The notes under the pieces are model-generated. The model was not told the DNA's origin. It saw nothing but the letters and a program-made list of their open reading frames with translations, and did no database searches. A DNA stretch of 64,000 bases from Streptomyces sp. T12 (GTDB lineage Bacteria > Actinomycetota > Actinomycetes > Streptomycetales > Streptomycetaceae). The stretch spans positions 7,440,001 through 7,504,000 of the forward strand of contig NZ_CP117866.1 of the NCBI RefSeq assembly GCF_028736035.1, read 5' to 3'. Below, piece by piece: positions 36,189 through 54,842 of this stretch. How positions within the stretch are numbered: the stretch's first letter is position 1; every line of letters starts with the position of its first letter. Both the position numbers and the translations under genes were made by a program.

Positions 36189-37382
36189 TCAGCTGTCGAC
36201 GGCGCTCCGCAAGGACGCTTGGGCGTTTCGCCGGGGACCGCTGAGGAAGTGCAGGAGGCCCGACATCCCACTCAGGGCCAGGCAGGCGGTCCACACCATG
36301 GAGGACGAGGAGTCGTGCATGAGGAGTCCTGTGACTAACGGTCCGGCGAATCCCGCGGCCGAGAATGTGAACATAGCGGCGCCTTGATAGGTTCCCCGTG
36401 CTTGTGCAGGGCTCAGTTCCAGGAGCGTGGCGGATGCGCAGCAGGTGCCGACGACTTCTCCGGTCGACCACAGAAGCATGGCGAGGACATAGACCGGTAT
36501 GGAGTCGGCGAGCCCGAGAGAGCCGAACCCCAGGCCCACCAGGGCCGCGCCGACGGCCAGTGCCTTGTTCTTGTCGAGGCGCGTTACGAGCTTGATCAGG
36601 AGTGGCTGGAGTACGGCGACATACAGAAGGCTGCCGGCGAGTAGATTGCCGTATACGTGGGCGGGCAAGTGGTCGGCGCGGATCGCCAGGGGCAACGCGA
36701 AGGTCTTCTGCGTAAGGACGAGGGCCAACAGGAAGCCGCACAGGGTGAAGACGAGGAAGACGGTGTCGTGCAGCAGGCGAACGTCTTCTGCCTTTGCGTT
36801 CCGTCCTGGGGCGGCCTCGGACGGACCGGAGTCCTTGACGCCGCGGAAGATCAGGAGTCCGGACATGAGAGTCGCTACCGCTTCGAGAGCGAAGGCCGGC
36901 GTATAGCCCTTGGCGGTCAGCAGACCGGCACCGGCCGCCGCGCCGGCCAGGCCGATATTCGTCGCCCAGGAAAGCAGCGAATAGGCGCGCACTCGGTCCC
37001 CGGCTTCCACGAGGTCGCCGATCAGGGCAAACAGGGCGGGGCGTGCGGCGCCGTTGGCGTATGAGGCTTGGGTGACGAGGGCCGCGACAGCCTGCCACTG
37101 GGAGACGAAGACCAGGGCGAACACCGATGTGGCGGCAACGGTGTTGGCCACCTGGATGGTTCTCGTCCGGCCCCACCTGTCTGCGCAGAATCCTCCGGTG
37201 AGCAGCCCCAACGAGTTGGCTCCGCTCGCGCAGGCGACGACGGCACCGACCAGAGACAGTGAGAGATGCCGTGCGTCGGTGAGGTAGAGCGGGAGCAGGA
37301 AGATCAGGAACGTGCAGAGGTGGTTGACGAGAGTGCTGCACCACACGATCCAGTACGAGCGGGGCAGTCCGGCGGCGATCAC
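36189..37382 (-). CDS. MFS transporter (probable product exporter)
   Basis: A 397-residue membrane protein with about 12 hydrophobic segments and an MFS loop GFCADRWGRTRTIQVAN between helices 2 and 3. The GTG at 37382 overlaps the TGA of the hydrolase gene upstream. It is the last gene of the minus-strand arm of the cluster and probably exports the product or a precursor. It contains a TTA leucine codon at 36338-36336, rare in Streptomyces and read only by the bldA tRNA. Substrate unknown. Confidence 0.88.
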   Translation of the reverse strand: MIAAGLPRSYWIVWCSTLVNHLCTFLIFLLPLYLTDARHLSLSLVGAVVACASGANSLGLLTGGFCADRWGRTRTIQVANTVAATSVFALVFVSQWQAVAALVTQASYANGAARPALFALIGDLVEAGDRVRAYSLLSWATNIGLAGAAAGAGLLTAKGYTPAFALEAVATLMSGLLIFRGVKDSGPSEAAPGRNAKAEDVRLLHDTVFLVFTLCGFLLALVLTQKTFALPLAIRADHLPAHVYGNLLAGSLLYVAVLQPLLIKLVTRLDKNKALAVGAALVGLGFGSLGLADSIPVYVLAMLLWSTGEVVGTCCASATLLELSPAQARGTYQGAAMFTFSAAGFAGPLVTGLLMHDSSSSMVWTACLALSGMSGLLHFLSGPRRNAQASLRSAVDS

Positions 37383-38218
37383 GTCCGTGGCCTCGTCGCC
37401 GCCCTGACATGGGAGCGCACCCGGCGTAGCAGGTCCGTGCGCGCTACTTGGTCCTGGAACAGGTGGTCACCGCCGGGTATGACCTCGACAGCCAGGCCCT
37501 GGCCTGCCAGCAACTTCGCGTGTGCGGCACCTCTGTCGTGTTCGCCGACGAGGACCGACAGGGATATGCCCATGTCCAACAGCTGTCCGCGTGGCTGGTG
37601 TTGGGACAGGTCGGCGGCGAACGCGTCGGGGACCTGGTGCTCGTGCGAGCGGGACCACGTTGTCGGCCAGGGTCGTAGGTCTCCGTCAGAGATGTCGCTG
37701 GAGACGGCGATGACGGCCCGGACGCCGTCAATCCGCAGCGCCGCCACTGCGGCGGACATCGCGCCGAGACTGACCCCGCAGAGCACCTTGGGCAGTGCCG
37801 AGAGATCGGCGAGCTGTGGGGCGTTCAGCACTGTGCGGATGTCGTCCGCCATGGTCGACACCGTCGGCTGGCCGAGCGCCACGGATGAATCCCCGCCGCC
37901 CCTGACATCGATGCGTACGACGCCCAGGTCCGCTTCCGCAAGGGCTTCCGCCAGCTGACGTCCCAGGCCCCCGGGGCCGAAGGAGTCGCCTGTGAGTCCG
38001 TGGCAGACGACCGCGAGCCCCATGGGCCGGCTTGGGATGTCCGCGATGCAGGAGATCCACTCGGCGTCGGCAACGGGCACAAGGAACTCGTGGGTGACCC
38101 ATCTCGATGTCAGGTCTGCGGGGAGGGGTCCTTCGGCCGTCTGACGGTCAGGACCGCCTGCGGCTGTGGCGCGTAGAAGGCCTCGATCACGGAGATCTCC
38201 TTCTCGGTGCAGTTCCAT
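37379..38218 (-). CDS. Alpha/beta hydrolase
   Basis: An alpha/beta-hydrolase fold with the nucleophile elbow GVSLG (Ser in LCGVSLGAMSAAV), an oxyanion segment VVCHGLTGDSFG and the His in PGGDHLFQDQ. It may hydrolyse or transfer an acyl ester, or release a thioester in the cluster. The start is uncertain: the ATG at 38218 overlaps the previous gene by 109 bases; a GTG at 38080 would give a shorter protein that starts just before the first strand. It overlaps the MFS gene by four bases. Confidence 0.8.
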   Translation of the reverse strand: MELHREGDLRDRGLLRATAAGGPDRQTAEGPLPADLTSRWVTHEFLVPVADAEWISCIADIPSRPMGLAVVCHGLTGDSFGPGGLGRQLAEALAEADLGVVRIDVRGGGDSSVALGQPTVSTMADDIRTVLNAPQLADLSALPKVLCGVSLGAMSAAVAALRIDGVRAVIAVSSDISDGDLRPWPTTWSRSHEHQVPDAFAADLSQHQPRGQLLDMGISLSVLVGEHDRGAAHAKLLAGQGLAVEVIPGGDHLFQDQVARTDLLRRVRSHVRAATRPRT

Positions 38219-38502
38219 GCCACCTTCACTTCCGCGTTGCGCTTCAACGGGTCGAACGTGCAGAACAGCGCCGTCGCCGTCCGGGAGTCCGCACTGCCCA
38301 GCCAGATGTCGATCCCCGATCCGTCGCCCCCGTCAGTGTTGTCGATGTAGCCGTAGTCGAGGGGGTAGATGTACTCGGGCACCTTGGGATGGGCGCACCC
38401 GCGTGGTCGGTCGATCGTGAGTGAGCCGGTCCGGACGATGTCGTCGAAGTGGGCCCAGATGGACATGGCGGAAAGTCGCTCGACTTCGCTGGGAATCAGC
38501 AT
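38110..38502 (-). CDS. Inorganic-pyrophosphatase-like protein
   Basis: A 130-residue protein, shorter than standard soluble pyrophosphatase (about 165-175). It keeps IDRPRGCAHPKVPEYIYPLD and YGYIDNTDGGDGSGIDIWLG, where the Asp-rich turn matches the family's metal-binding DGDPLD region only partly. It may hydrolyse pyrophosphate released by the nucleotidyl-transfer or adenylation steps of the cluster, or be a related phosphohydrolase. The ATG at 38502 follows AAAGGAGACTGACCGCC, only 5 bases after the stop of the oxygenase gene. Confidence 0.78.
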   Translation of the reverse strand: MLIPSEVERLSAMSIWAHFDDIVRTGSLTIDRPRGCAHPKVPEYIYPLDYGYIDNTDGGDGSGIDIWLGSADSRTATALFCTFDPLKRNAEVKVAWNCTEKEISVIEAFYAPQPQAVLTVRRPKDPSPQT

Positions 38503-38507
38503 GGCGG

Positions 38508-39260
38508 TCAGTCTCCTTTAGAGCGTGGGCCGGTCTTGGGACCCGCCAGCGAGTGCGCATACACCTTGCTGCGGGGAAGACGTCCGTCCTCCACGTAGTA
38601 CCGGCATGTGGCCGTGGCCCGTTCACCGGGGGTGTCGTTTGCCAGAGGAGTCGTCCAGTGCACCAGCCCCGCGTGCTTCATGATGAGCAGGTCACCGCGC
38701 TGCAAGTCGGCACGCGTCCCGTCCTCGAATTGCAGTTCACCGCCGTACTCCACGGGCGGCGCGTCTACGCAGATCATTATCTGGTAGTCGCCCGTGGTGT
38801 CGTCGTGCGGCGTGATTGAGTCACCGGCCGCGTAGCGGTTCACCCACCGGCGCGTGGTGATGGTCCGGCGCGAGAAGCCGGAGATCTCCGCCATAGCGGA
38901 GATGAAGTTCGTGGACAGGCACAGCACTGAGAAGGGGTCGAGCGCGACCGTCTCCGACAGGGGCAGATATGCATTGTCGATGAGATCGATCTGCCACCTG
39001 CCTTCGGATGCCTCGACCCGTTCGACCACGATGTCGCTACGCTCGCGCAGGTGCTGGTCCAGGCGGTCGCAGACGTCCGCCGCGAGGAAGCCCCGTAGGT
39101 GTCCGATGGACGTCTTCGCCACTTCCTCTGTCAGCTGGTGGCGTGCTTGCCGCACCTGTTCTCCCGCTCGCAGAACGGCGTCCACGACACGGTCTTGGTC
39201 GGCACCGGCCTGAGGGCTGAGGTAGCCGGCGAAGGCGCGCGCCTCATCTGCGTTCCACAT
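38508..39260 (-). CDS. 2-oxoglutarate/Fe(II)-dependent oxygenase
   Basis: A 250-residue protein with the double-stranded beta-helix pattern of the prolyl-hydroxylase-like 2OG-Fe(II) family. The iron ligands appear as HDD in GDSITPHDDTTGDYQIM and the distal His in MKHAGLVHWTTP, and Arg in ERATATCRYYVED binds 2-oxoglutarate. It probably hydroxylates a biosynthetic intermediate (a free or carrier-bound amino acid or a sugar/nucleoside). It overlaps the preceding gene by 17 bases, in line with a single operon. Confidence 0.85.
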   Translation of the reverse strand: MWNADEARAFAGYLSPQAGADQDRVVDAVLRAGEQVRQARHQLTEEVAKTSIGHLRGFLAADVCDRLDQHLRERSDIVVERVEASEGRWQIDLIDNAYLPLSETVALDPFSVLCLSTNFISAMAEISGFSRRTITTRRWVNRYAAGDSITPHDDTTGDYQIMICVDAPPVEYGGELQFEDGTRADLQRGDLLIMKHAGLVHWTTPLANDTPGERATATCRYYVEDGRLPRSKVYAHSLAGPKTGPRSKGD

Positions 39261-39939
39261 GCTGTATTCCTCCTCGTGTGCGAGTGGGGGCGCAGAGTCT
39301 GACCATTCGGTCGATGAGCTCGGCGCGTTGGGTAAGCGTCAGATGCGTGGGTGCGTCCGTGAACCAGATGTGAGAGGACGCGCAGAACTGTGCGGCGTAC
39401 TCATGGAGTTCGGTCAGGATCTCGGCCGGATAGTCGAAACCACCCGCGCACCGGGACTCGACGCCGAGGTCCTCGACGTCTGGGTGGAAGCCGTCCTGGA
39501 CGAGCCGGGCCGGGGTAAAGCATGGCTGGCTCCCGTTCGCGTCGAGGAGTCGTCGCAGTGAGACTCGGCCGGCGGGGCGCAACGCGATCTGGTCCTGCGG
39601 GCCGACCGACGCAGGTACGACCAGTGCCGACGAACCTCGCGCGATGACCACCACACGGGCGGCCGACTGGCGCAGGTGGTCGACCGCGGCGGCGGCCTGC
39701 CGGCGCCAGATGCGCGCGGACTTGCTGCCCGGGGCGTTGCCGCATCCCGACAGTTCTGGGCGCAGACAGCTCACCTGGTGTTCCGAGAGGGCGCGGGCGA
39801 GTTCGGACCAGAGATAGTTGATCCCGGTCCGAGGCTCACCCATGCCGGGCAGTATCAGTGCCGCGGTGTCGCTGCCGCCCTCGTGATACATCACCGGCCG
39901 GGGGAAGGCCGGTACGTCGACAAAGACTGGTGCCGTCAC
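39244..39939 (-). CDS. Unrecognised alpha/beta-hydrolase-like protein
   Basis: A protein of 231 residues that I do not recognise clearly. The N-terminal part (ALILPGMGEPRTGINYLWSE, then RPELSGCGNAPGS) resembles an alpha/beta hydrolase oxyanion loop, and VVVIARGSSALVVPASV occupies the position of the nucleophile elbow. The motif is not a clean GxSxG, and the C-terminus has HLTLTQRAELIDRMV. It may be an inactive or diverged hydrolase. The GTG at 39939 overlaps the TGA of the kinase gene (GTGA); a GTG one codon upstream is also possible. Confidence 0.6.
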   Translation of the reverse strand: MTAPVFVDVPAFPRPVMYHEGGSDTAALILPGMGEPRTGINYLWSELARALSEHQVSCLRPELSGCGNAPGSKSARIWRRQAAAAVDHLRQSAARVVVIARGSSALVVPASVGPQDQIALRPAGRVSLRRLLDANGSQPCFTPARLVQDGFHPDVEDLGVESRCAGGFDYPAEILTELHEYAAQFCASSHIWFTDAPTHLTLTQRAELIDRMVRLCAPTRTRGGIQHVERR

Positions 39940-40577
39940 CACAGTGCGTCCAGCTCGGCGATCGAGGTGGCCAGTACCGCGTGGATCGGGGCCTCCGCGT
40001 CGACGATCCGGGTGCCGGGCTCGTCGGCGAGGAGCACGTCGAACTCTGCGGCGGCCCGTGCCAGCAGCTCGTACCGGTCGAAGACGCCCTCCGCGCCGCC
40101 GCGGGCCTCGATCCGTTCCAGCGCGTTTTTCGGTTCGATGCGCAGGTGGAGGGTCCGGTCAGGCCGGGGAAGGACGTCCATGAGCGGCGTCAGCGCGGAC
40201 AACTCGGCACCGAACACCGCCTGGTTGACCTGGTGCGAACTGAGGTAGCGGTCACAGACGACGGTGACGCCGTCGGCGATGGCGGGTATCACCTCGTCAG
40301 CGACCATGCCGGTGAAGGAGTAGGTGAGGAAGAGGGCGTAGATGTCCAGGCCGGGCAGGATTCCGGCCGTTGCCGTGCCCGACAGTTCGGCGGCGCTGCG
40401 CAGTCCCGCGAGATAGGGATGCCCTGCGGCGACGGGACGCAGGACAACGGCGGGCCGTCCTGCGGCGCAGAGATGCTCAGCCAGCCGGGCAGCGACGGTC
40501 GACTTTCCCGAACCGTCGATACCTTCGACGGCGATGAGCCGCCCCGATCCCCGGGGCGTTTTCGCTGGGTTGGTCAC
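39936..40577 (-). CDS. Thymidylate-kinase-like P-loop kinase
   Basis: A 213-residue protein of the dTMP kinase family: P-loop EGIDGSGKSTVAARL at about 19-33, the DRY-like VVCDRYLSSHQVNQAVF, and a LID-like region near RIEARGGAEGVFDRYELL. The true house-keeping tmk should be elsewhere, so this is a cluster copy for a nucleoside, sugar or other monophosphate. GTG at 40577 overlaps the TGA of the radical-SAM-like gene. It co-occurs with a second nucleotide-kinase-like gene at 41826, an unusual pairing for a peptide-type cluster. Confidence 0.85.
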   Translation of the reverse strand: MTNPAKTPRGSGRLIAVEGIDGSGKSTVAARLAEHLCAAGRPAVVLRPVAAGHPYLAGLRSAAELSGTATAGILPGLDIYALFLTYSFTGMVADEVIPAIADGVTVVCDRYLSSHQVNQAVFGAELSALTPLMDVLPRPDRTLHLRIEPKNALERIEARGGAEGVFDRYELLARAAAEFDVLLADEPGTRIVDAEAPIHAVLATSIAELDALW

Positions 40578-41719
40578 GAGCGGACCTGGAAGGGGGCCGG
40601 AGCCGCAGGATAGCGGTGGCTGAAGCACGGCTTGGGGATCCGAACGTCCTCGTAGACGTGGCGGTTCTCGGCGGCCTCCTTCGCGCTCAGCTTCGTCTTG
40701 CGGAATCCGGCGAGGTCGATACGGCGCCCGGAACGCTCAACGATCTCCGGGAGCCGGGTGGGGTGCACACCGATCTGGACGTGCATCTTCTTCAGATACT
40801 CAATCTGCTTGATGATGCAGTAGCTGCAATCGAGGCAGACGTCGATGTTCTCCGACCAGGCGAACCAGGAGGAGGTCGACTCCAGTTTCCGCTCACCGGT
40901 GGGGATGGTGAGGAGGTTGTAGTTGCTCTGGAGTTCCTCGACGAAGATCTCGGCCCGGGTGAGCATGCGGAGGAAGTTGATGTCGCCGGTGGTGCCCTTC
41001 GGGAGGACGACACGGTCGCCCTCGACGGCGAACTCGTAGCCAAGCTCCGCGACGATGTCGAGGTGGCGGGGTGTCCCGAGATCATGCACCCAGCACTCCG
41101 TGCCGTGGAGGTGGGCCGCGGCGCAGCTCGTCTTGTGGAAACTCCGCACGCCGGCCGCGTCGCACAGCTCGACCAACTGCTCTTCGATCGTGAGCCGGAT
41201 CTTCTTCCGCTTGTACGGATCGTGGAGTCCGCCAAGCACCAGGTGCCCGGTGTGTTCGGCTGCGACCTCGACGAACCTGTGCAGTGTCGCGGGGTCGTCG
41301 TTGCGTCCTCGGATGATCGGTCGGGTGAACACCAGGGTGTTGGGGAACAGGTCCCTCAGTTCCTTGATCATCACCACGCGGTCGTCGAAGGAGATGTCGC
41401 CTTCGTCAAGGGCCGTGAGCGAGTAGTAGACGACGATCTGCTCGAGGTCCGTCACGGATTCGAGCTTCCGCAGTACCTGCGGGTCAGGGCCGGCCTTGGT
41501 GAAGATGGCCAAGGGAGCACGGTGCGACCTGAGTTCATCGAGCTTTGCGATGGTGTTGTCCACCTGCTCGGGGATGAAGGGGTCACCGTAGGTGTCGTTG
41601 ATGGACGTGGGGACGGCTTGCGTCCACTCGGGGGCGTCGGGTGCGTGGGTCATGACGCGGTTGTGCGTGATCTCCGGTGCGTTGACGACAGTGAGAGGCA
41701 GGCTCTTTCTGGCTGTCAT
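40574..41719 (-). CDS. Radical-SAM-like barrel protein lacking the N-terminal CxxxCxxC motif
   Basis: A 381-residue protein. Its middle part follows the radical SAM TIM-barrel of the spore-photoproduct-lyase type: YGDPFIPEQVDNTIAKLDEL, LAIFTKAGPDP, VVYYSLTALDEGD and FTRPIIRGRNDD. The cluster-binding cysteines expected before this (residues 15-40) are absent. A C-terminal VCLDCSYC (about 294-300) and two cysteines in KTSCAAAHLHGTECW could bind iron-sulfur or zinc instead. So it may be a non-canonical or inactive radical SAM relative; a rearranged cluster is also possible. It is translated in an operon with the kinase gene. Confidence 0.72.
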   Translation of the reverse strand: MTARKSLPLTVVNAPEITHNRVMTHAPDAPEWTQAVPTSINDTYGDPFIPEQVDNTIAKLDELRSHRAPLAIFTKAGPDPQVLRKLESVTDLEQIVVYYSLTALDEGDISFDDRVVMIKELRDLFPNTLVFTRPIIRGRNDDPATLHRFVEVAAEHTGHLVLGGLHDPYKRKKIRLTIEEQLVELCDAAGVRSFHKTSCAAAHLHGTECWVHDLGTPRHLDIVAELGYEFAVEGDRVVLPKGTTGDINFLRMLTRAEIFVEELQSNYNLLTIPTGERKLESTSSWFAWSENIDVCLDCSYCIIKQIEYLKKMHVQIGVHPTRLPEIVERSGRRIDLAGFRKTKLSAKEAAENRHVYEDVRIPKPCFSHRYPAAPAPFQVRS

Positions 41720-41825
41720 GACGACCTCCTGACCCAGGCGAGCCTGGGGAAGCGGATGTATGGGGGCTCACTGGCCGCGCTGGCCGGGCCAGCCGCAGGC
41801 GATGTGGGACGTCAAACTGGGAGAA

Positions 41826-42509
41826 CTAGGAAAGGAGAGCGGGGCGTACGCGTGCGAGGACGTACCTGGCGCTGGCTGAGAGGTCTCCGGTGTTGTCGAC
41901 GGTGACGTCGTGCGCGATGTCTGGGCCGATGGATGTCTCCGTGGCGTGCCGGTCGGTGGCGGGGTCCAGGAACCCGTCGCGTTCCAGGATCCTGAGCCTG
42001 CGGAGCTGCTCGGGTACCTGGATCCGCACCGTTCGGAAGCCGGCCGCGCGCAGCAGCATCAGTTCCTCTGGATAGCGGCAGTCAGTCACGAACGCGGCTT
42101 CGTCCGCGGCCAGTTCGTCCACTCGGGAGCTCATCCGGCGGAGCCAATAGAGCGGATCTTCACGGCGGCGTACGTCGGTGCCCCACCATTGAAGCAATGA
42201 TCGGGACGGCATCCGGTGCGGGTGATCAGGAGTTTGCGCCAGGATGCACTTCTCCACGGCGGAGCGCGCTGTCGCGGCGTCCACGCGCATGCGCTGGCTC
42301 ACGCGCTCGGCAACTGAGATGTCGTCAGCACCGCTGGCGTCGGGGCTGATGATCTCCAGCAACGTTCGCACCTCGGCGATGACGTGCTCGCCGAAGGTGA
42401 GTCTGGCTGGTGCCACGCTTGCCAGGGCATAGATCGCACGGGCCATGCTGTCCTTACCGCTGCCGCTCGGGCCGGAGAAGGCCAGGCGCAGCGGCTCAGG
42501 CCCGGGCAC
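41826..42509 (-). CDS. Deoxynucleoside-monophosphate-kinase-like P-loop protein
   Basis: A 227-residue protein of the dNMP-kinase type best known from T4 phage. The P-loop FSGPSGSGKDSMARAIYAL lies at residues about 11-29. The region LLQWWGTDVRRREDPLYWLR, AAFVTDCRYPEEL and RHATETSI is characteristic of the family. It could phosphorylate a nucleoside monophosphate or a related precursor of the product. Its 5' end overlaps the glycosyltransferase gene by 14 bases, and 106 bases separate it from the radical-SAM-like gene. No housekeeping role is evident. Confidence 0.82.
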   Translation of the reverse strand: MPGPEPLRLAFSGPSGSGKDSMARAIYALASVAPARLTFGEHVIAEVRTLLEIISPDASGADDISVAERVSQRMRVDAATARSAVEKCILAQTPDHPHRMPSRSLLQWWGTDVRRREDPLYWLRRMSSRVDELAADEAAFVTDCRYPEELMLLRAAGFRTVRIQVPEQLRRLRILERDGFLDPATDRHATETSIGPDIAHDVTVDNTGDLSASARYVLARVRPALLS

Positions 42510-43683
42510 GGACGCTGATCCGTTCCGGGGTCAGCCAGCCTTCGCGGCATCCCCGCACGTAGGCGAGGTGGTGGGCCAGGCCGGCATAACCGGTGACCGT
42601 CTCGAAGTACAGCGTGTGCAACGGGTCGGTCTCCAGGCGGCCGACGGGCTCCTCCGTCAGGAACGGGGGAAAGCGCCTGGCGGCATCGAGGAACAGGTGC
42701 TCCGCGTGGGCGTAGTCACCGCGGGCCTGGGCGACGACGCCGCGGTTGATCACTGTGTGGAGCAGAGCGGGGTCGGCGTCCATGGCCTCCGCGAAGGTGT
42801 GGTCCGCGGCGTCCAGGTCTCCTGAGGCGGTCTGGCAGATACCGACCATGTTCATCAGGCTCGCGTCGGAGGGACGCAGGGACAGGCCTTGCTGGTACGC
42901 CCTGCGTGCTTCCTCACCCTGCCCCGTGGCCCGCAGCACATGTCCATGGAAGGCCCAGACGGTGGGGTTGGTGTCGTCGATCCCCAGGGCCTTCTCACTC
43001 CACTGCCGGGCTTCGTCGAACTGTCCGAAGAGGCGCAGGTTGAGGCCGATGTAGCCGGTGAGTACGGCGTCGTCCGGCTGCTCGGCGAGTTGCTCGCGCA
43101 TCAGGGACATGTACCGCAGGGCCTTGGCGTCGCGTTCCGCACGTGGCCTGGAGTGTCCGACGTGGGTGAGGAGAGCGGAGCTGTGGGCGATGCGCAGGCC
43201 ATGCTGCGAGAGAGCGCCCTTCACGGACTCGTTGATTCGCCGCTCGTAGCGGATCCGTGGGTCGTGCCGAAACACCTTCAGTTCGCGTCCGGTGTAGAAG
43301 CCCCCGGTGGGGAAGAAGTTGTAGCGCAGCAGTGTGATGCCGCCGACATTGGGGGCAGCGGTTTCGATGGCGGATTTCAGCGGCGCCACCTGGCCGGGAT
43401 GCAGCTGTTCGTCCGCGTCGAGGAAGAACACCCAGTCCGCGTCGTCGACGAGTGCGAGCGCGTGATTGCGCGCTGCCGAGAAGTCCCCCGTGAACGGGAG
43501 ATCCGTGATGGTGTGGGCCAGTTGGGCGCCGATCGACCGTGTCGCGTCCTGCGAGCCGGTATCCACGAGGATGACCTGGTCGCAGAGTTGTCGCAGCGAG
43601 CGCAGGCAGTCGGCAAGGAAACGTTCCTCGTCCTTGGCGATGACGCAGCCGACGATGCGGCCTGTCGTCCGGGCTGGGGTCAT
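42496..43683 (-). CDS. Family 2 glycosyltransferase with TPR repeats
   Basis: A 395-residue protein. The N-terminal GT-A domain has VGCVIAKDEERFLADCLRSL and the DxD-type motif FFLDADEQLHPG. Residues about 225-340 hold tetratricopeptide repeats (for example NPTVWAFHGHVLRATGQGEE and EARRAYQQGL). The C-terminus is a short extra domain. It probably transfers a sugar from an NDP-sugar to the product or a carrier. Start and stop of the upstream glycosyltransferase overlap as ATGA, so the two act together. Confidence 0.88.
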   Translation of the reverse strand: MTPARTTGRIVGCVIAKDEERFLADCLRSLRQLCDQVILVDTGSQDATRSIGAQLAHTITDLPFTGDFSAARNHALALVDDADWVFFLDADEQLHPGQVAPLKSAIETAAPNVGGITLLRYNFFPTGGFYTGRELKVFRHDPRIRYERRINESVKGALSQHGLRIAHSSALLTHVGHSRPRAERDAKALRYMSLMREQLAEQPDDAVLTGYIGLNLRLFGQFDEARQWSEKALGIDDTNPTVWAFHGHVLRATGQGEEARRAYQQGLSLRPSDASLMNMVGICQTASGDLDAADHTFAEAMDADPALLHTVINRGVVAQARGDYAHAEHLFLDAARRFPPFLTEEPVGRLETDPLHTLYFETVTGYAGLAHHLAYVRGCREGWLTPERISVRARA

Positions 43684-44753: not shown

Positions 44754-44988
44754 AGCTGTGAGGCAACCGGTTCGCGCGCAGCTCAGCGCCCAGTCGGGGC
44801 CGGCGGACCCGGCAACCTCGACTTCGTCGGCCCTTCTGTCTCCGGGACGACAACGCAGGCTGGGCAACCGGGCCTTCAGCCGCTCCTCGATGCCACGAGC
44901 ACTAACCGGCGACGGCCTCGTACATGACAGGACTAGAGGCGCACAAAGTCCTGAGCAGGTGGGGATGGGCAGATAACCCACCCCGAGA

Positions 44989-46609: not shown

Positions 46610-46681
46610 CCGGCTCTCGCAATCGGTCGGCGGATCCACGCCGACGCATCGTGGTCCACGTTTCACAGAGAGGCAGCCACC

Positions 46682-48550
46682 ATGACCACGCTGAGGAACC
46701 CTTGGAGTCGCTGCACGCCTGTTGACCGTGAGGTCATCGAGCAGCTGCAAGGGGAGACACGATCCGTCGCGGCCGACGAGGTTCTGCGGCGCTTGCGGGA
46801 GCACTACCGCGATGCGGGCACTCGCATAGCCGTGGTGGACGGCGCACGCTCCTGGACGTATGCCGAACTGGGACAGCGGGTCTTCGGCCTCGCCCGACGC
46901 CTCAGCGAGCAGTTCTCCCTTGATACGACAGATCACAGCCGGGTGTTCGGGGTAGCCGTCGACCGCTCACCCGAACTGCTCCTCGCCGTCCACGCCGTGG
47001 CGTTGACGGGGTCGGCATACTGCCCCGTGGGCCCGAGCGATCCACCGCAGTGGCAGCTGGACGTCTCCGGCACAAGCGGCGCGACCGCCGTCCTCGTTGC
47101 CGACGACACAGGTCGCAACCTCTTCGCCAACGCCTTCTCCATCGGCATGGGCGGCCACGTCGAAGCGGACCTTGAGCCGTGGGCCGTCGGGATGCACAGC
47201 ACCTCCCAGGTCATCTTCACCTCGGGGTCGACCGGTCGGCCCAAGGGCGTGATCTGCACCCACGGAGGTTTCGCCAACCGGATACGGTGGATGCAGGAGA
47301 CCTTTCCGTTGCAGGCCACCGATCGAGTCGCCCTCAAGACACCCATCACTTTTGACGTCGCCGGCTGGGAGATGTTCTGGCCGCAGTACGCCGGTGCGGG
47401 GACGGTGGTCGTGCCACCCGGTGCTCACACCTCACCGGAAGCGTTGACCTCGATCTTCAACGAACACCGGGTGACCGTCGCTCACTTCGTGCCCTCCATG
47501 CTCCGGATGTGGCTGCGCGCGGACGGTGCACGCCGGTGCCCGGACCTGCGCATGGTCTTCTCCAGCGGGGAGGCGCTCGACACTGCCCTGGTGGAGGAGT
47601 TCACCCGCCAGTCCACGGCCGAACTCCACAACCTGTACGGGCCCACAGAGGCCGCCATCGACGTGACGCACTATCCCGCGAGCCGCCTTGCCCGCCAACC
47701 GGTTCCGATCGGGCGCCCGATCACCAACACCCGCATCTACATCCTGGACCAAGACGGGTTGGTGTGTCCCGTTGGAGAGCGGGGCGAGATCCACATCCAG
47801 GGCGCGGGCGTGGCATCCGGTTACCTCGGAGCCGGAGAGGAGGACGACGCGCGCTTCCGGTCCGTCCTCCCTGAAGCACCCCGAGGGTGGGGAACGTTTC
47901 GTACAGGCGATTTGGGCCGGTACACGGACGACGGTCAGATTGAGTACTGCGGTCGTCTAGACGGCCAGCTGAAGATCCGCGGCCAGCGCGTCGAACCGGC
48001 AGAAGCCGAGCATGCCCTGCGCCGGCATGGGCAGGTCCTCGACGCCCATGTGCGGGCCCATCTGTCCGGAAGCGGCCGCCTACTGCTGGTCGCCTACGTC
48101 GTGGTCGACGCCGCGTACAGCATGACCGATCCCGTCGGGGAACTGCACAAGTACCTGATGGAGCGTCTACCGGCCCGTTCCGTACCGTCGAAGTTGGTCC
48201 TCCTCGACTCTTTGCCCCTGACCGGGCACGGGAAGGTCGACACCAGTCGGCTGCCTACGCCAGGGCGTGCCCGGCCTGATCTCAAGTCGGAGTACCAGGA
48301 GCCGAGAGAGCCCCTTGAGCAGGTCATCGCCCGGATCTGGGCCCATGTCCTGGACTTGGACGAGGTGGGCGTGAACGACAACTTCCATGATCTGGGCGGC
48401 GATTCGCTGGCTGCCGTCGAAATCTCCTTCATTCTGACAGAGCGGCTCGGCCTCGACTACGACGACCCGCTCATCCCTCGCATCCTCATGGACGGTGACA
48501 CCGTGGCGCGGTCCGCCGTCATAGCCGCCGAGGCGGGGATCCCACAGTGA
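46682..48550 (+). CDS. NRPS adenylation-PCP didomain, predicted serine-specific
   Basis: A 622-residue protein. Motifs A3 (FTSGSTGRPKG), A4 (FDVAGWEMFWP), A5 (NLYGPTEAAIDV), A8-like GQLKIRGQRVEPAEAE and A10 (GHGKVD) are present. The C-terminal carrier domain has Ser in FHDLGGDSLAAVE. Reading the nine Stachelhaus positions gives Asp225, Val226, Trp229, His268, Phe293, Ser295, Leu318, Ile326, Asp327 and the A10 Lys, i.e. DVWHFSLIDK, a known L-serine code. It activates and tethers the amino acid; no condensation domain is fused. Its end overlaps the methyltransferase gene. Confidence 0.9.
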   Translation: MTTLRNPWSRCTPVDREVIEQLQGETRSVAADEVLRRLREHYRDAGTRIAVVDGARSWTYAELGQRVFGLARRLSEQFSLDTTDHSRVFGVAVDRSPELLLAVHAVALTGSAYCPVGPSDPPQWQLDVSGTSGATAVLVADDTGRNLFANAFSIGMGGHVEADLEPWAVGMHSTSQVIFTSGSTGRPKGVICTHGGFANRIRWMQETFPLQATDRVALKTPITFDVAGWEMFWPQYAGAGTVVVPPGAHTSPEALTSIFNEHRVTVAHFVPSMLRMWLRADGARRCPDLRMVFSSGEALDTALVEEFTRQSTAELHNLYGPTEAAIDVTHYPASRLARQPVPIGRPITNTRIYILDQDGLVCPVGERGEIHIQGAGVASGYLGAGEEDDARFRSVLPEAPRGWGTFRTGDLGRYTDDGQIEYCGRLDGQLKIRGQRVEPAEAEHALRRHGQVLDAHVRAHLSGSGRLLLVAYVVVDAAYSMTDPVGELHKYLMERLPARSVPSKLVLLDSLPLTGHGKVDTSRLPTPGRARPDLKSEYQEPREPLEQVIARIWAHVLDLDEVGVNDNFHDLGGDSLAAVEISFILTERLGLDYDDPLIPRILMDGDTVARSAVIAAEAGIPQ

Positions 48551-49722
48551 GCCAGACCACAGGCCGGCCAGGTATCGAGCAGGCATGGCGGCACGTCTAC
48601 GACCGCGCCTATCGGCTGGATCGCACGCCAACGGCTTCGCACCTCGACACCAGCGGATGGGTCAACACGTACACGGGGCAGCCTTACGAACCGGCCGAAA
48701 TGGAGGAGTGGACCGAGGAGACGGTCGGCAGGATCCTGGAGCATGCGCCACGCAGGGTACTTGAAATCGGCTGTGGCACAGGGCTGTTGGGCAGCCGACT
48801 GATCCCCGTGACCGAGGCATACTGCGGGCTCGACTTCTCTGTCGGCGCCCTGCAACGCTTCAGCCTGGGGATTGATTCGACGACCAGGTCCGCCGTCTGT
48901 CTCCTGTTGGGCAGCGCCAAGGATCTCAGCCTGGTACCGAAGTGGGACTACGACTGCATCGTCCTCAACAGCGTTGTGCAGTACTTCCCCGACACCGCCT
49001 ACGTGCATGAGGTGCTCCGGCAGGCCGTCGGGCTGCTCCGGCCCCCGGGAATCCTCTTCCTCGGCGACGTACGACACCGGGACCTGCTGGCAGTTCACCA
49101 TGTCTGGCGCTCGTGGCGGGCTGCTCCCGACGGTACGACCGCGGGGGAGGCTCTCGCCGATGCGGAGAGACGCCACCGTGCCGATCGCGAGTGGAGCACC
49201 GTCCCTGCTGACCTGGCCGGTCTTCTCCGGTCCGTTGGCGCACAGCATGTCGAGTCCCGGCTCAAGGACGGCGCGTACCTGACAGAGATGAACCTCTTCC
49301 GGTACGACACCATCGGCTACTTCCAGCCGCCCCAACCGATCGCGGATCCTGCCGAGTGGCTGGTCTGGGAACCCGGTATAGAGCAGCGGATCGACTGGCG
49401 CAGCAGGCTGCCAGTGGGGATTCTCGGCATTCCCCACACACGCCTTGACCCGCCGAACGAGGCCGGACGCAGCCTGCGCGACGCCCCGGAGAACACGACC
49501 CTCGCATCACTGCGCATGGCCCGAGAGCCCCGCCGCGACGACGATCCACTGGCCGTCGTCCGCGGCATGGCCGCCGAACACGGCGCTGTGATCCGCACAA
49601 ACTGGTTGCGGGACCGTGGCGGACACACGCTGGACCTCGCCGTCCTGTTCGAGAAAGACACCTCCGGGCCCGGATCGCTGCTGGTGCGCTGGCCCACGAC
49701 CGGACACGGAAACCTCGAATGA
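48547..49722 (+). CDS. Free-standing NRPS-type methyltransferase
   Basis: A 391-residue protein. The SAM-binding motif VLEIGCGTGLLGSRL is preceded by SGWVNTYTGQPYEPAEMEEW, the signature of methyltransferase domains embedded in NRPS adenylation domains. LRPPGILFLGDVRH and the C-terminal extension continue that family. It therefore looks like an NRPS M domain that exists as a separate protein, probably methylating the serine-derived intermediate on nitrogen (or carbon) while bound to the PCP. The GTG overlaps the A-PCP stop by four bases. Confidence 0.85.
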   Translation: MSQTTGRPGIEQAWRHVYDRAYRLDRTPTASHLDTSGWVNTYTGQPYEPAEMEEWTEETVGRILEHAPRRVLEIGCGTGLLGSRLIPVTEAYCGLDFSVGALQRFSLGIDSTTRSAVCLLLGSAKDLSLVPKWDYDCIVLNSVVQYFPDTAYVHEVLRQAVGLLRPPGILFLGDVRHRDLLAVHHVWRSWRAAPDGTTAGEALADAERRHRADREWSTVPADLAGLLRSVGAQHVESRLKDGAYLTEMNLFRYDTIGYFQPPQPIADPAEWLVWEPGIEQRIDWRSRLPVGILGIPHTRLDPPNEAGRSLRDAPENTTLASLRMAREPRRDDDPLAVVRGMAAEHGAVIRTNWLRDRGGHTLDLAVLFEKDTSGPGSLLVRWPTTGHGNLE

Positions 49723-49732
49723 GGAAGGGATC

Positions 49733-51067
49733 ATGGCGGACTCCGGGCAGGGAACACTGCGGATCGACTACTCCGGAATCGGTGGCGGACGCGGTCCCGC
49801 TACCTGGGGGCAGCGCCATATCTGGGCGTCCTTCCTCGACAACCGGGGCAACCCGGCCCGATTTACCTTGCGCCGCGCATGGCACGTTCCGGTCGGCCGT
49901 ACGGTCGCGGACGTCGTGGGCGCATTACGCGCGCTCGTTGAGCAGCACGAAGCCCTGCGGACCCGTTTCGAAGTCGACAGAGGGGCGCTGGTCCAGGTCG
50001 TAGGACAAGACGGCCTCTTGTCCTGCCCGGTGACGGATGCCGCCGCCGAGTGGTCCCAGGAGGCAGCACTGCGGGCAGCTTCGGAGTCGGTGGTTGCCGG
50101 CTTCGGGCCGGATGAAGAACCACCGGTCCGTTTCCAGATTCTGACCTTCCAAGGGACACCGCAGTGGATCGTCGCCGCGATCTCGCACCTGACCGTGGAC
50201 GCCGAGGCGTGCGACAGACTCCAATCCGATCTTCATGGTCTACTGACGGAAGCCGGAACACCCTCGACTGCTACCTGCCAGCCCCTCCAACGAGCCCGGT
50301 TCGAGCAGTCGTCCGAGGGCCGATCACAGAACGCACGGGCGCTTCGGCACTGGCGAACGGTGCTCGAACGCCACCCCGAGTGGCTCTTTCCGATCCGCGC
50401 CGACAGCACGCACTCCTGGCACGGCGAACGATTCGCCGTCGTCCAGGCACACGCACCTGGGCTGGGACGGCACGTCGAACGAATCGCCGACCGCCTGCGC
50501 GTCTCGGCTCCGGCCCTGTGCGTCGCGGCCTTCTGCAAGGCGTTCGCGGCCTGCTCCGATGCAACCGCGTACCCGCTGGGTGTCACATTGTCCAACCGTG
50601 TTTTGTCGTGGTCCCGCGGATACATCGGCACCCTCGCACAGCACGGAGTCATCGGAATTCGGGACGTCCAGACGCCTCTCGATCAACTGGCCCGGCAGAC
50701 ATGGCACTCCCTCCTGCTGAGCCACCGTTTCTCCCTGTACGACCAGGACGACGTATTCGCGCTGATCTCGCAGATGTGCGGCAGGGAATGCGACTGGTTC
50801 GGGCCGGTGGCTAATTTCGTGAACTTCCAGTACCTGTCGTCCCTGAGTGGCGTGGCGTCTCCCGCCGAGGATCCCGCGGGGCGGGAGCTGGTGTTCGCGG
50901 ATCTGGATCCCCAAAAGGACAGCGCCGTACGGTTCGGCCTACACATCGGCTCCGACGCAACGGACCTCATAATCCGGATGTCCGTGGACCAGGCCTGCAT
51001 ACGCACGGAATCGGTACGCGAAGCCATCGCAGGCGCGGCCTCCGAACTCTGGTCGGCCAACGGATAG
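49733..51067 (+). CDS. Stand-alone condensation-domain protein
   Basis: A 444-residue protein of the NRPS condensation/acyltransferase superfamily: ATWGQRHIWASFLD at the N-terminus, EQHEALRTRFEVD, and AAISHLTVDAEACD in place of the HHxxxDG motif, keeping the second His and the Asp. The C-terminal half has WFGPVANFVNFQYLSS. It probably transfers the tethered serine residue to an amine or hydroxyl acceptor, perhaps the glycosylated or phosphorylated partner. It contains a TTA leucine codon at 49925. ATG follows GAGGAAGGGATC. Confidence 0.82.
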   Translation: MADSGQGTLRIDYSGIGGGRGPATWGQRHIWASFLDNRGNPARFTLRRAWHVPVGRTVADVVGALRALVEQHEALRTRFEVDRGALVQVVGQDGLLSCPVTDAAAEWSQEAALRAASESVVAGFGPDEEPPVRFQILTFQGTPQWIVAAISHLTVDAEACDRLQSDLHGLLTEAGTPSTATCQPLQRARFEQSSEGRSQNARALRHWRTVLERHPEWLFPIRADSTHSWHGERFAVVQAHAPGLGRHVERIADRLRVSAPALCVAAFCKAFAACSDATAYPLGVTLSNRVLSWSRGYIGTLAQHGVIGIRDVQTPLDQLARQTWHSLLLSHRFSLYDQDDVFALISQMCGRECDWFGPVANFVNFQYLSSLSGVASPAEDPAGRELVFADLDPQKDSAVRFGLHIGSDATDLIIRMSVDQACIRTESVREAIAGAASELWSANG

Positions 51068-51078
51068 AGGAATTCCTG

Positions 51079-53022
51079 ATGACGACGTTCGACCCGCGCG
51101 ATCCTAGGTTCCCTTTAGGCGCTCTGCACCCCGCGCAGTTGCGCGCCCTGTTCGCCGAACGAGTGCGCCTTCTGCGGCTGCTGCCGCTGATCGGCCTCGG
51201 CTCGCTCTCAGCGCTGCTGGCACTGATCACGGTCACCGTGCTGACCGGACCGGCCATGGCGCTGCTGACGGGAGAGCTGCTGGACCGTATCGTCCAGGAC
51301 GACGGCTTGACCGGGGCAGCCTGGGTGATCGTCGGCCTTGGCGGGATGTTGCTTCTCCAGCAGTTGATCCGCCCCATGAGCGAACTGGTCACCACAGGCG
51401 CCACCCGCAGGATCGACGGCGTCCTGCGCGAGCGGATCCGGCAGGTGGCACTGACACCGGCCACCATCAGCCACCTGGAGGAGTCCGAGTTCCAGGACGA
51501 CGCCCTGCGCGCGAGTGAGATCGGCGAGGGATGGTGGGTACGCTCCGCCGGAACCGCGGCCTGTAGCAGCCTGCTGCTCACTGGCCGAGTCCTTTCCGCC
51601 ACTGCATCGGCGGTGGTACTGGCCCTGTACTTTCCGTGGCTCGCCGGCTTCCTGCTTGCGGCCTCGCTGCTCAGCCGCTCCTTGCAACGTCGTCAGTGGA
51701 CCCACCTGGTCACGGTCGGGGACCGACTGACCGGCGGTCAGCGCAGAGTCGACTACCTCGACGAACTGGCCGCCGGGCTGGAGGCCGCCAAGGAGATCCG
51801 CCTGTTTGGCCTCGCGGATTGGCTGGTGATACGCCGAGCATCCACCCACTGGGAACTCCGCGCCCCGTACTGGGCGCTGCGCCGCAGCCTGCTGCGCCGA
51901 CAAGGTCTGACGACGGCGTTGTCTGCGGCGTGCGGGGCGTCTGCCCTACTGGTTCCGGGCCTGGCGGCAGCCGACGGAAACATCAGCGTCGGCGCACTGG
52001 GTTCCTGCCTGGCCGCCGCCACTGGCATCTTCCAGATCACCTTGATGGGCTTCGAAAGCTTCGACATCGAGTACGGCAAGGGCGCTGTTCAGGCAGTCGA
52101 CCGACTCTTCGCCCGTTATGGCGACCCGGACGAGCGGTTCGGTGAAGCCCCGGCAAACGTGGGAATCGAGGCACCGGAAACCGACGGTCGACATGCACCG
52201 CTCATACAAATCGACCAGGTGACCTTCCGCTACCCCCACGCCGCCCAGCCAGTGCTGCGCGAGCTGAACCTGACGATCCATCCGGGCCAGGTGCTCGCAA
52301 TCGTCGGGGTCAACGGAGCCGGGAAGACGACCCTGACCAAGCTCCTGGCAGGACTGTACCGGCCCACCCACGGGCGGATCACCGTCGACAACCAGACACT
52401 CGGAGACCTAGACCCGGCCGTTCTCCGCCGCCGTCTGAGCGTCATCTACCAGGACTTCCTGCACTACCCGGCCACTGTCCGCGACAACATCATCCTGAGC
52501 GCACCAGAGCATCCTCCGCAGAGCGGTGACGAGGAGGTGCTGGCCGCCCTGCACCGCGCCGGAGCGGACGGACTGCTGCGCTCACTTTCCGAGGGCCTCG
52601 ACACACAACTGTGGCGTACGGGAAGCGGCGGCCGTGACCTCTCAGGCGGGCAGTGGCAACGTCTGGCCCTGGCCCGAGTGCTCTATGCCACCGCCCACGG
52701 ACGCGATCTGATCGTGTTGGACGAGCCCACAGCCAACCTGGACGCCGAAGCGGAGACAGAGTTCTTCGACAAGGTGGTCGCCACCGTCCGCTCGAGTGGT
52801 GTCTCCGTCGTGCTCATCTCCCACAGGCTCTCCACCGTCCGCAATGCCGACCGCATCGTGGTTCTGAACGACGGCCGCATCACCGAATCCGGCAGCCACG
52901 ACGATCTGCTCGCCTTCCCGGATGGCAGCTACGCCCGTCTGTGGCGGCTCCAGGCATCCCGGTTCACCGGGGAGCAGAACCCCGAAACGGTCACTGCCGA
53001 CACCGGCCCGCACGCCGAGTAA
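51079..53022 (+). CDS. ABC half-exporter 1 of the cluster
   Basis: A 647-residue half-transporter: membrane domain, then NBD with Walker A GVNGAGKTT, signature LSGGQWQRLALAR, Walker B DLIVLDEPTANLD and H-loop SHRLST. The LSGGQWQR form is frequent in peptide/lantibiotic-type exporters. It has a TTA leucine codon near its start (codon 13). It is followed by the second half-exporter 14 bases later, and together they may form a heterodimer that exports the cluster product or provides self-resistance. Confidence 0.9.
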   Translation: MTTFDPRDPRFPLGALHPAQLRALFAERVRLLRLLPLIGLGSLSALLALITVTVLTGPAMALLTGELLDRIVQDDGLTGAAWVIVGLGGMLLLQQLIRPMSELVTTGATRRIDGVLRERIRQVALTPATISHLEESEFQDDALRASEIGEGWWVRSAGTAACSSLLLTGRVLSATASAVVLALYFPWLAGFLLAASLLSRSLQRRQWTHLVTVGDRLTGGQRRVDYLDELAAGLEAAKEIRLFGLADWLVIRRASTHWELRAPYWALRRSLLRRQGLTTALSAACGASALLVPGLAAADGNISVGALGSCLAAATGIFQITLMGFESFDIEYGKGAVQAVDRLFARYGDPDERFGEAPANVGIEAPETDGRHAPLIQIDQVTFRYPHAAQPVLRELNLTIHPGQVLAIVGVNGAGKTTLTKLLAGLYRPTHGRITVDNQTLGDLDPAVLRRRLSVIYQDFLHYPATVRDNIILSAPEHPPQSGDEEVLAALHRAGADGLLRSLSEGLDTQLWRTGSGGRDLSGGQWQRLALARVLYATAHGRDLIVLDEPTANLDAEAETEFFDKVVATVRSSGVSVVLISHRLSTVRNADRIVVLNDGRITESGSHDDLLAFPDGSYARLWRLQASRFTGEQNPETVTADTGPHAE

Positions 53023-53036
53023 GGAATCCCTGCACC

Positions 53037-54842
53037 GTGACGAACACCGGCCCCGACTGGGCCTCCCGGATCTGGACGCTCCGCCATATGCTCCGGCTGT
53101 CCACCCGGGCGGCGCCGGCGGTGACTGTGCTGAACGTGCTGCTGATCCTGCTGCTGGGAGGGGGCGTTGCACTCACGGCGGCGAGCCAGCGGATGATCGT
53201 CGATGCTGCCGGGCACAACGCGATGCCTGCCGTGCTCGGCGCTGCGGCGCTCGGTGTGATCGCCCACGGCGCGACCTTCGTCCTCCAGCACATCCAGGGT
53301 GAGGTCCGCCAGGACCTCACCGTGCGGGTCGCCCGGGAACTCGACCACGAGATCCTCACCCTCGCTGCCCGCATCCCCACGCTCGAACACCTTGAGCGAC
53401 CCGACTTCCTCGACCGTGTCACCAACCTTCGCCGCGGTACCCAGGCCCTGGCCGCCTCTGTCTGGCGCGTGGCCCAGGCCGCTTCGTCGGTGATCAGTCT
53501 CGGACTCAGCGTGTGGTTGCTTGCTGCCATTCACCCTGCTCTACCCCTGCTGGCCTTGTGCGCGGCCCCGCTCCTGATCCTCACTGGCCGAGGGCGCAAG
53601 CACTTTCGCACGGTGCGGGACGACTGCGCCGAGTACGAACGGCTGGAACGCAATCTCCACGAGCTCTGCCTGCGCCCCGAGTCGGCCAAGGAACTGCGGA
53701 TCGCGGGTAGTGGTCCGCTCCTGTCAGCGCGCGCGGGGCGACTATGGGGCGACACGACCGACCGGCTCATCCGTGCCCGGCTGCGCGGTGCTTTCTGGGA
53801 GAGCCTCGGCTGGATGGTATTCACTCTGGCATTGAGCGGTGCGGTGGCGCTGACGGCGCACCTGTACACGACCGGCTCCGCTGGGCTCGGCGACATCGTC
53901 ATGCTCGTCACTCTGGGCAGTGCCCTCAGCCGGCAGATCGAGACGGCTCTCTTCTCCCTCGGCGTCGTAGCCGAAGCAGGTCACGTGACCGGCCACTACT
54001 TGTGGCTCAGGAAGTACGCGGACGCCCAGCCCGCCGGGACCGAAGCGGCTCCCGAATCCCTCACGTCCGGCATCAGCATGCGCCGCGTCACCTTCCGCTA
54101 TCCGGGTACGGACATACGGGCCTTGTCGGACGTCGACCTCGACCTTCCGGCGGGCTCCGTGGTGGGCCTCGTCGGCATCAACGGAGCCGGGAAGACCACT
54201 CTGGTCAAACTGCTGACTGGCATGTACCGGCCTGACGCGGGCTCCATCGGCGTGGACGGCATGCCCCTTGCCGACCTCGCCCCGGATGCGTGGGCAGCGC
54301 GGTGCACCGGAGCGTTTCAGGACTTCACCAAGTTCCAGTTGCTGGTGAGCGAGAACGTCGGGGTCGGCGACCTTCCTCACCTCGACGACCTCGACGTCAT
54401 TGCGAACGCCGTCCTCCGCTCTGGCGCCGAGAGCGTCGTCCAATCCCTCCCCGGGCGGCTCCATACCCAACTCGGCACTGTCTTCGACGGGGTCGAACTG
54501 TCTCACGGACAGTGGCAGAAACTCGCCCTGGCCCGAGGGCTGATGCGCCGCAATCCTCTGCTCCTGGTGCTGGATGAACCCACGTCCGCTCTCGACCCAC
54601 AGGCGGAGCACGACCTGTTCGAGCGGTTCGCCACGCAGGCCCGCGACGCCGCCGCACGCTGCGGCGCCGTGACCATCCTGGTCTCCCATCGCTTCTCCAC
54701 CGTCCATATGGCCGACCTGATCGTTGTCCTGGAGGAAGGCCGAGTGGTTGAGCAGGGCACCCACACCGAACTCCTGGGGTCAGGCGGCCGGTACGCCCAG
54801 CTCTATACGGCTCAAGCGGCCGCGTACGGAGTGAAGGGATAG
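53037..54842 (+). CDS. ABC half-exporter 2 of the cluster
   Basis: A 601-residue half-transporter. Walker A GINGAGKTT, Walker B LLLVLDEPTSALD and SHRFST are intact; the signature reads LSHGQWQKLALARG, a degenerate form of LSGGQ. Such asymmetry is common in heterodimeric exporters. The GTG at 53037 follows AAGGAATCCCTGCACC after the first half-exporter. It is the last gene of the plus arm; the PIN/antitoxin pair lies beyond it on the other strand. Confidence 0.9.
   Translation: MTNTGPDWASRIWTLRHMLRLSTRAAPAVTVLNVLLILLLGGGVALTAASQRMIVDAAGHNAMPAVLGAAALGVIAHGATFVLQHIQGEVRQDLTVRVARELDHEILTLAARIPTLEHLERPDFLDRVTNLRRGTQALAASVWRVAQAASSVISLGLSVWLLAAIHPALPLLALCAAPLLILTGRGRKHFRTVRDDCAEYERLERNLHELCLRPESAKELRIAGSGPLLSARAGRLWGDTTDRLIRARLRGAFWESLGWMVFTLALSGAVALTAHLYTTGSAGLGDIVMLVTLGSALSRQIETALFSLGVVAEAGHVTGHYLWLRKYADAQPAGTEAAPESLTSGISMRRVTFRYPGTDIRALSDVDLDLPAGSVVGLVGINGAGKTTLVKLLTGMYRPDAGSIGVDGMPLADLAPDAWAARCTGAFQDFTKFQLLVSENVGVGDLPHLDDLDVIANAVLRSGAESVVQSLPGRLHTQLGTVFDGVELSHGQWQKLALARGLMRRNPLLLVLDEPTSALDPQAEHDLFERFATQARDAAARCGAVTILVSHRFSTVHMADLIVVLEEGRVVEQGTHTELLGSGGRYAQLYTAQAAAYGVKG

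Follow-up and report, generated by a model that had tools for sequence, protein, structure and literature searches.

Within a 64,000-nucleotide stretch of Streptomyces sp. T12 (contig NZ_CP117866.1, positions 7,440,001 to 7,504,000; hereafter the window), a biosynthetic gene cluster at 36189-54842 encodes a radical S-adenosylmethionine (SAM)-like protein. Our best reading of its sequence and predicted structure, as yet unproven, is that this protein is a circularly permuted radical SAM core, for which we estimate a probability of roughly 0.58. Relative to the radical SAM core, its chain begins with strand 2, and a segment resembling strand 1 and the cluster loop lies near the C terminus. Under this proposal the chain would open with strands 2 to 6 and close with strand 1, the [4Fe-4S] cluster-binding loop (CX2-3CX2C) and helix 1. 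The computed support for this reading comprises a conserved core, an absent N-terminal motif, an improved match on re-ordering, and the predicted fold. A preliminary description of the window, made from sequence alone, named the protein and was silent on its unusual architecture.

Members of the radical SAM family are usually recognized by an N-terminal CX3CX2C motif. We collected 71 relatives of the window protein by phmmer and 85 by profile search (35-98% identical; one of the 85, P0005, is probably the window protein's own cluster entry). In none of the 81 family proteins with an N-terminal part did we find CX3CX2C or another cluster motif ahead of the GDP residues, where up to three single cysteines occur. 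A motif is found instead near the C terminus, as CX2CXYC in 80 of 85 proteins, the window protein included, and as the textbook radical SAM motif CX3CXYC in four (P0080, P0084, P0085, P0088); the remaining protein, P0089, is truncated. Residues of both regions are invariant in a 31-row alignment: N41, G45-D46-P47, T74-K75, Y99-S-L-T, R133-P134, C199, C209, H212, W285, W288, N291, C298, Y300, C301 and C365. Canonical radical SAM enzymes carry their cluster near the amino terminus, according to PMC4389238.

Native family sequences align to the Pfam radical SAM profile PF04055 only from position 49-65 onward. When the C-terminal segment was moved to the front in seven members, five matched the profile, each with an alignment that now extended to position 5-9, over the motif (in P0085 the first motif cysteine, at profile position 7, is where the alignment starts). 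The gains were 3.7 bits for the window protein, 2.0 for P0009, 5.0 for P0043, 5.2 for P0085 and 0.8 for P0080; a shuffled control, run for the window protein only, fell to 15.7 bits, and P0085 and P0080 were re-ordered at a slightly different cut and without such a control. The curated cut-off of 29.5 is not reached by the window protein in either order (18.5 bits native, 22.2 re-ordered), and among nine members scanned only P0043 exceeded it, and only when re-ordered (34.1). We describe the protein as radical-SAM-like rather than as a canonical member because the N-terminal motif is missing and its score falls short of the curated cut-off.

Profile-profile alignment points to the same segment. 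Against 22 SplB-like enzymes, hhalign lined up WFAWSENI-CL-CSYCII with PFEWTVNPYRGCSHACVYCFA. The segment alone scored 18.4 against 28 SplB-like enzymes, where 200 column shuffles gave a mean of 11.0 (standard deviation 2.3, maximum 19.9); in a second run, two of 400 shuffles reached its score (mean 11.1, maximum 21.3). When 30 sliding 50-residue family windows were compared with the strand 1/motif part, those starting at 260-290 took the top four places (18.3, 18.0, 17.8 and 15.0; next 13.1). The AlphaFold2 model of the window protein has a predicted local distance difference test score of 85 and contains the partial TIM barrel that characterizes the radical SAM superfamily; for two AlphaFold models of the family, the greatest resemblance is to radical SAM enzymes (by VIA-align for the window model).

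Several results weigh against a permuted core. P0061 and P0072 match PF04055 in neither order, and the gain for P0080 is small. The whole permuted profile scored 45.8 by hhalign, equal to the mean of 60 shuffles; the segment profile, searched against its own genome at E values up to 10, recovered only itself; and NCBIfam matches to permuted sequences stop short of the motif. A Foldseek search with the window model returned no match at E 0.001, with a ribulose-phosphate epimerase ranked first. Structural alignments of this model start downstream of the reference motif in only nine of 17 rows (PFL-AE 0/3, SPL 3/6, RlmN 3/5, viperin 3/3), and in a second model comparison the alignments to SkfB and, in one row, to SuiB begin ahead of the motif, at motif residue numbers that we take to be correct for the reference enzymes. 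These alignment ranges led us to lower our estimate slightly, from 0.60 to 0.58. The packing of the C-terminal strand beside strand 2 is putative.

A rather unlikely alternative is convergence on an arrangement like that of ThiC, in which a barrel is followed by a separate [4Fe-4S] domain, tethered at the C terminus, that moves into the active site without any permutation. As precedent for a cluster at the C terminus, ThiC comes nearest: according to PMC4389238, it has a CX2CX4C motif in a tethered, cluster-bearing domain close to its C-terminal end, comparable to the family in position and, for most members with their CX2CX2C, in non-canonical spacing. The unimproved score of the whole permuted profile and the model alignment ranges also suit this explanation. 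The family differs from that account of ThiC (PMC4389238) in having CX2-3CXYC and an N-terminal barrel aligned to the canonical core from strand 2, and further points favor a permuted core over convergence: the PF04055 alignment of the N-terminal part does not begin before the GGEP region, four members carry the canonical CX3CXYC, and the segment is closer to SplB strand 1 than is any other part of the family. Less probable still is that the family descends from radical SAM enzymes but has lost the catalytic cluster, its C-terminal cysteines binding a structural cluster or zinc for non-radical chemistry. The canonical motif position is indeed empty in 81 of 81 proteins, and Cys199, Cys209 and Cys365, which never vary in the 31-row alignment, could provide a further metal site; however, an aromatic residue is kept before the last cysteine, CX3CX2C occurs in four divergent members, and the GGEP-like strand keeps its GDP in all 31 rows. 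An N-terminal motif hidden by a misannotated start was rejected, as the motif is absent from 81 of 81 homologs and only 106 bases separate the gene from its upstream neighbor.

Few of these proteins have been recognized as radical SAM enzymes. A precomputed Pfam radical SAM label is attached to five of the 71 relatives, and nearly all source names read 'hypothetical protein'. Hosts include Streptomyces, Micromonospora, Bacillus, Lacrimispora and Rhizobium, among others, with Paenibacillus added by our contig scan. The family is rare, as judged from its low counts in whole-genome samples: three of 392 genomes sampled in the genus (1e-30), one of 394 in the class (1e-20; the source genome itself), and four of 394 from the family of genome G778 (1e-20). 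Searches of IMG/VR contigs (for close relatives only), plasmids and phages returned no match, nor did plasmid searches with the 2-oxoglutarate (2OG)-Fe(II)-oxygenase-like protein and the minus-arm DNA. No relative was found in the PDB by sequence, and the family profile gave four chance-level matches there.

Spore-photoproduct-lyase (SplB)-type enzymes (NF033668, NF038135, TIGR04470) share with the family the barrel strands from the GGEP region and a W-x2-N-x-CX3CX2C-like segment. The order of these segments differs, being permuted in the family, which scores 11-20 bits against cut-offs of 360-430. Literature searches combining radical SAM with circular permutation or a permuted CX3CX2C returned no title or abstract opening about a permuted radical SAM enzyme, and as far as these searches show, the family may be the first of its kind. 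Such a permuted branch escapes the N-terminal CX3CX2C recognition rule and, if the reading is true, the radical SAM core tolerates permutation.

To place the protein in context, we examined a set of 11 loci, made up of the window, nine loci (L001-L009, out of 36 stretches) from a genome-collection contig scan with two peptide patterns, and L051 from Paenibacillaceae, the family of the Paenibacillus host of L005. Hosts span Streptomyces, Actinacidiphila, Actinoplanes, Nocardia and Paenibacillaceae. L049 (100% identical) and L050, whose contigs have the lengths of those of L002 and L004, were treated as duplicates of these two and not counted. Gene counts derive from tblastn of window proteins, all-against-all BLAST and Pfam on selected neighbors; because L002, L004 and L008 are close to the ends of their contigs, absences there are weak evidence. 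The minus-strand operon together with the divergent nucleotidyltransferase gene is a conserved biosynthetic core. A thymidylate-kinase-like gene is missing only from L008 and L051, and a cytidine monophosphate (CMP)- or deoxynucleoside monophosphate (dNMP)-kinase-like gene is present in 10 of 11 loci, with none seen in L009 (L006 was assigned by similarity, L004 and L008 by similarity plus a visible P-loop). In several other loci a cytidylate-kinase domain replaces the dNMP-kinase-like type, and in L005 and L007 a CMP-kinase domain and the second GT2 glycosyltransferase form one fused protein. A pol-beta-type nucleotidyltransferase, either NTP_transf_5 or a smaller motif-assigned form, is found in nine loci and not in L008 or L051; the NTP_transf_5 family also occurs in L003 and L009, and those of L001, L002 and L007 were assigned by motif and mutual similarity (L001 and L002 without a Pfam match). 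The NTP_transf_5 gene is thus part of the conserved core despite its position in the plus arm.

A GT2 protein with TPR repeats (GT2-TPR) and the alpha/beta-hydrolase-like proteins ABH1 and ABH2 also belong to the core. ABH2 was assigned in L007 by all-against-all BLAST only and was not found in L003 by our searches. The pyrophosphatase-like gene and a DUF402-like gene each occur in four loci and never together; Pfam recognized the latter in L003 only (22.7 bits versus a cut-off of 23.9), and those of L004-L006 were assigned by similarity to the L003 protein. Phosphoenolpyruvate-utilizing enzymes are encoded in L007 and L051 (Pfam), L008 (similarity to L007) and L009 (by eye). Because gene content and, in part, gene order recur in another phylum, the cluster is more than a chance assembly. 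The core was probably acquired horizontally, as suggested by a transposase gene right of the cluster, an integrase-type gene close to the core in L001, its rarity and its scattered hosts. The Paenibacillaceae-type locus also encodes a second, canonical SPASM-type radical SAM protein (L051 874-1890, by Pfam; L008 8675-9667, by eye), and the radical-SAM-like gene of L051 (8776-9872) is split across two reading frames.

The rest of the plus arm behaves differently. The adenylation-peptidyl carrier protein (A-PCP), methyltransferase (MT) and free condensation (C) genes were found with the core only in the window, and a reading of the two arms as a single conserved unit is not supported. Independent distribution of the arms, which the preliminary description named as evidence against its proposal, is seen for these three genes and not for the nucleotidyltransferase, a member of the core. 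The serine-type assignment of the A-PCP didomain made there is supported by TIGR01733 and PF00550 matches above cut-off and by a serine-typical predicted pocket, D-V-W-H-F-S-L-I-D-(K), at positions that we take to line it and with a code that we take to be that for serine. In the condensation domain the second histidine of the motif is kept. Outside this cluster, the closest relative of the C protein shares 41% identity with it, and 58 of 392 genomes of the genus match it at 1e-20, its own included. A second copy of the plus arm was sought and rejected: three C-protein neighborhoods (one only 4.2 kb) lacked core genes and the A-PCP/MT/NTP_transf_5 set, one of them containing a distant A-domain match.

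Loading of an amino acid onto a carrier is not universal among the 11 loci. It is encoded, by unrelated means, in three (the window, L008 and L051), or four if the nonribosomal peptide synthetase-type A domains of L003 belong to that locus. L008 and L051 encode an aminoacyl-tRNA synthetase (aaRS)-like protein and a carrier protein, and the closest PDB match of the L051 enzyme is an amino acid:[carrier protein] ligase (4.5e-16). Like the window A-PCP, these Bll0957-type ligases (L008 by Pfam) are expected to load an amino acid onto a carrier encoded nearby; they have a class II aaRS fold, whereas the window has an A domain and no Bll0957-type ligase. L001 encodes an asparagine synthetase-like protein and a PqqD protein (Pfam). 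In partial support of the earlier proposal of a seryl conjugate, an aminoacyl-carrier step recurs in another form in L008 and L051; the A-PCP/MT/C version was found with the core in the window alone.

The proposed nucleotide theme was strengthened by the recurrence of two nucleotide-kinase types with a nucleotidyltransferase and by P0080, a 509-residue radical-SAM-like homolog fused to a NUDIX domain (PF00293, 65.9 bits). Thymidylate, CMP and dNMP kinases add phosphate to nucleoside monophosphates, nucleotidyl transfer is carried out by pol-beta-type enzymes, NUDIX enzymes hydrolyze nucleoside diphosphate derivatives, and DUF402 includes the CMP-phosphonate hydrolase of fosfomycin biosynthesis. 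The most economical reading of these family functions is that the pathway handles a nucleotide, either as such or as a handle attached to the substrate. The thymidylate-kinase-like protein exceeds the PF02223 cut-off, with a P-loop and DRY motif in the alignment and thymidylate kinase as its best PDB match (E 1e-11); it scores 71.5 bits against TIGR00041, under the dTMP kinase equivalog cut-off of 83.25, and is described here as a relative rather than as the housekeeping enzyme. The NTP_transf_5 protein had no PDB relative by sequence. ABH2 is probably not a hydrolase, since its nucleophile serine is, by eye, replaced (RGxx) in the seven aligned sequences.

We speculate that the cluster product is probably a sugar-bearing, nucleotide-linked small molecule. 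The nucleotidyltransferase would load a nucleotide, and the thymidylate- and CMP/dNMP-type kinases would raise or recycle its phosphorylation. The radical-SAM-like enzyme would bind the cluster and SAM and form a 5'-deoxyadenosyl radical acting on the nucleotide or nucleotidyl-activated substrate. The pyrophosphatase-like protein, or the DUF402 protein in other loci, could cleave a phosphoanhydride, and the two GT2 enzymes may attach sugars. In the window strain, A-PCP would load serine, the free C domain transfer it and MT methylate, before export through the MFS and ABC pumps. More tentatively, and at somewhat less than even odds, the family would be an active permuted radical SAM enzyme that works on such a substrate and is central to a new type of natural product, glycosylated and aminoacylated, shared by Actinomycetota and Bacillota. 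It is possible but unlikely that the kinases and nucleotidyltransferase merely supply nucleotide sugars or self-protection, the product being an ordinary glycosylated seryl peptide or amide. The two GT2 enzymes, one weakly related to SunS (TIGR04195, a peptide S-glycosyltransferase model; 30.9 bits, far under the cut-off of 350), and the PqqD-type proteins of L001 (Pfam) and L007 (similarity) fit an ordinary peptide; against it stand the NUDIX fusion of P0080 and the recurrence of both kinase types across two phyla, in loci whose machinery for loading an amino acid varies or is not seen.

Blasticidin S is made by a nucleoside antibiotic cluster that combines the radical SAM enzyme BlsE with nucleotide-type genes. 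The window cluster shares this combination, and compared by description it differs in its two nucleotide kinases, pol-beta-type nucleotidyltransferase and GT2-TPR protein. Full-text literature searches for a comparable gene set found no paper, weak evidence that the cluster is undescribed and consistent with the earlier statement that it fits no recognized type. It thus represents a cluster type whose product is open to direct search.

The cluster comprises 16 genes, called by open reading frame (ORF) analysis with refined starts (Table 1); these calls reproduce the divergent two-arm layout described before. All families listed in the preliminary description were detected, although the 2OG-Fe(II), pyrophosphatase-like and radical SAM matches fall under curated Pfam cut-offs, and ABH1 and ABH2 are additional to that list. 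Most genes of the minus arm overlap, with spacings of -4 to -109 (exceptions 5 and 106). GC content is 64.5-67.9% in ten 2-kb windows over 36001-56000, 66.7-74.3% in the left flank and 63.9-70.9% in the right. A coding filter based on third-position GC was passed by 12 of 16 genes; ABH1, GT2-TPR, C and the second ABC exporter failed and are supported by Pfam.

Table 1. Genes and sequence features of the cluster, in window coordinates
Feature	Position	Strand	Remarks
MFS exporter	36189..37382	-	PF07690 145 bits
ABH1 alpha/beta-hydrolase	37379..38218	-	PF12146 43.9 bits; GVSLG nucleophile elbow present; 8/11 loci (L003 by tblastn only)
Inorganic-pyrophosphatase-like protein	38110..38502	-	PF18823 16.3 bits, under cut-off 26.8; 4/11 loci
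2OG-Fe(II)-oxygenase-like protein	38508..39260	-	PF13640 19.5 bits, under cut-off 27; HxD...H by eye; 3/11 loci
ABH2 alpha/beta-hydrolase-like protein	39244..39942	-	Weak: PF12697 19.8 bits, under cut-off 26.3; 7/11 loci
Thymidylate-kinase-like protein	39936..40577	-	Likely start 40577, longest ORF to 40628; PF02223 77.5 bits; 9/11 loci
Radical-SAM-like protein, 381 aa	40574..41719	-	PF04055 18.5 bits; family of 85; YGDP at GGEP position 41579-41590
CLDCSYC motif, residues 295-301 of radical-SAM-like protein	40817..40837	-	
Residues 276-335 of radical-SAM-like protein, resembling strand 1/CX3CX2C/helix 1 of SplB-type enzymes	40715..40894	-	
dNMP-kinase-like protein	41826..42509	-	PF21448 30.2 bits, over cut-off 27.1; phrog_139 4.7e-27
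GT2-TPR: GT2 glycosyltransferase with TPR repeats	42496..43683	-	Pfam; 8/11 loci
Second GT2 glycosyltransferase	43680..44753	-	Pfam; 6/11 loci
NTP_transf_5 nucleotidyltransferase-fold protein	45395..46609	+	PF14907 64.9 bits
A-PCP didomain	46682..48550	+	TIGR01733 341.5 bits (cut-off 317.4); PF00550 37.0 (cut-off 20.8); pocket motifs
Class I methyltransferase	48547..49722	+	PF08242 44.5 bits
Stand-alone condensation domain	49733..51067	+	PF00668 47.0 bits; SHLTVDA replaces HHxxxDG
ABC exporter 1	51079..53022	+	PF00005 101.4 bits
ABC exporter 2, start refined	53037..54842	+	PF00005 86.2 bits

No RNA element reached gathering scores in 30000-60000, and among 17 ORFs overlapping the stretch between the arms, none was convincing by eye as a small precursor peptide. 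At the right edge, a PIN-domain protein (PF01850) lies directly downstream of a small antitoxin-like ORF (54902-55846 and 55291-55569, minus strand), a pair that by eye looks like VapBC. Farther right is a DDE transposase gene (57155-57868, plus strand), probably partial (PF01609, profile positions 68-199 of 200). Elsewhere in the window, tandem genes at 2406-4148 and 4282-6351 (minus strand) encode thermolysin-like secreted metalloproteases, with HEMTH seen by eye and a C-terminal extension on the second.

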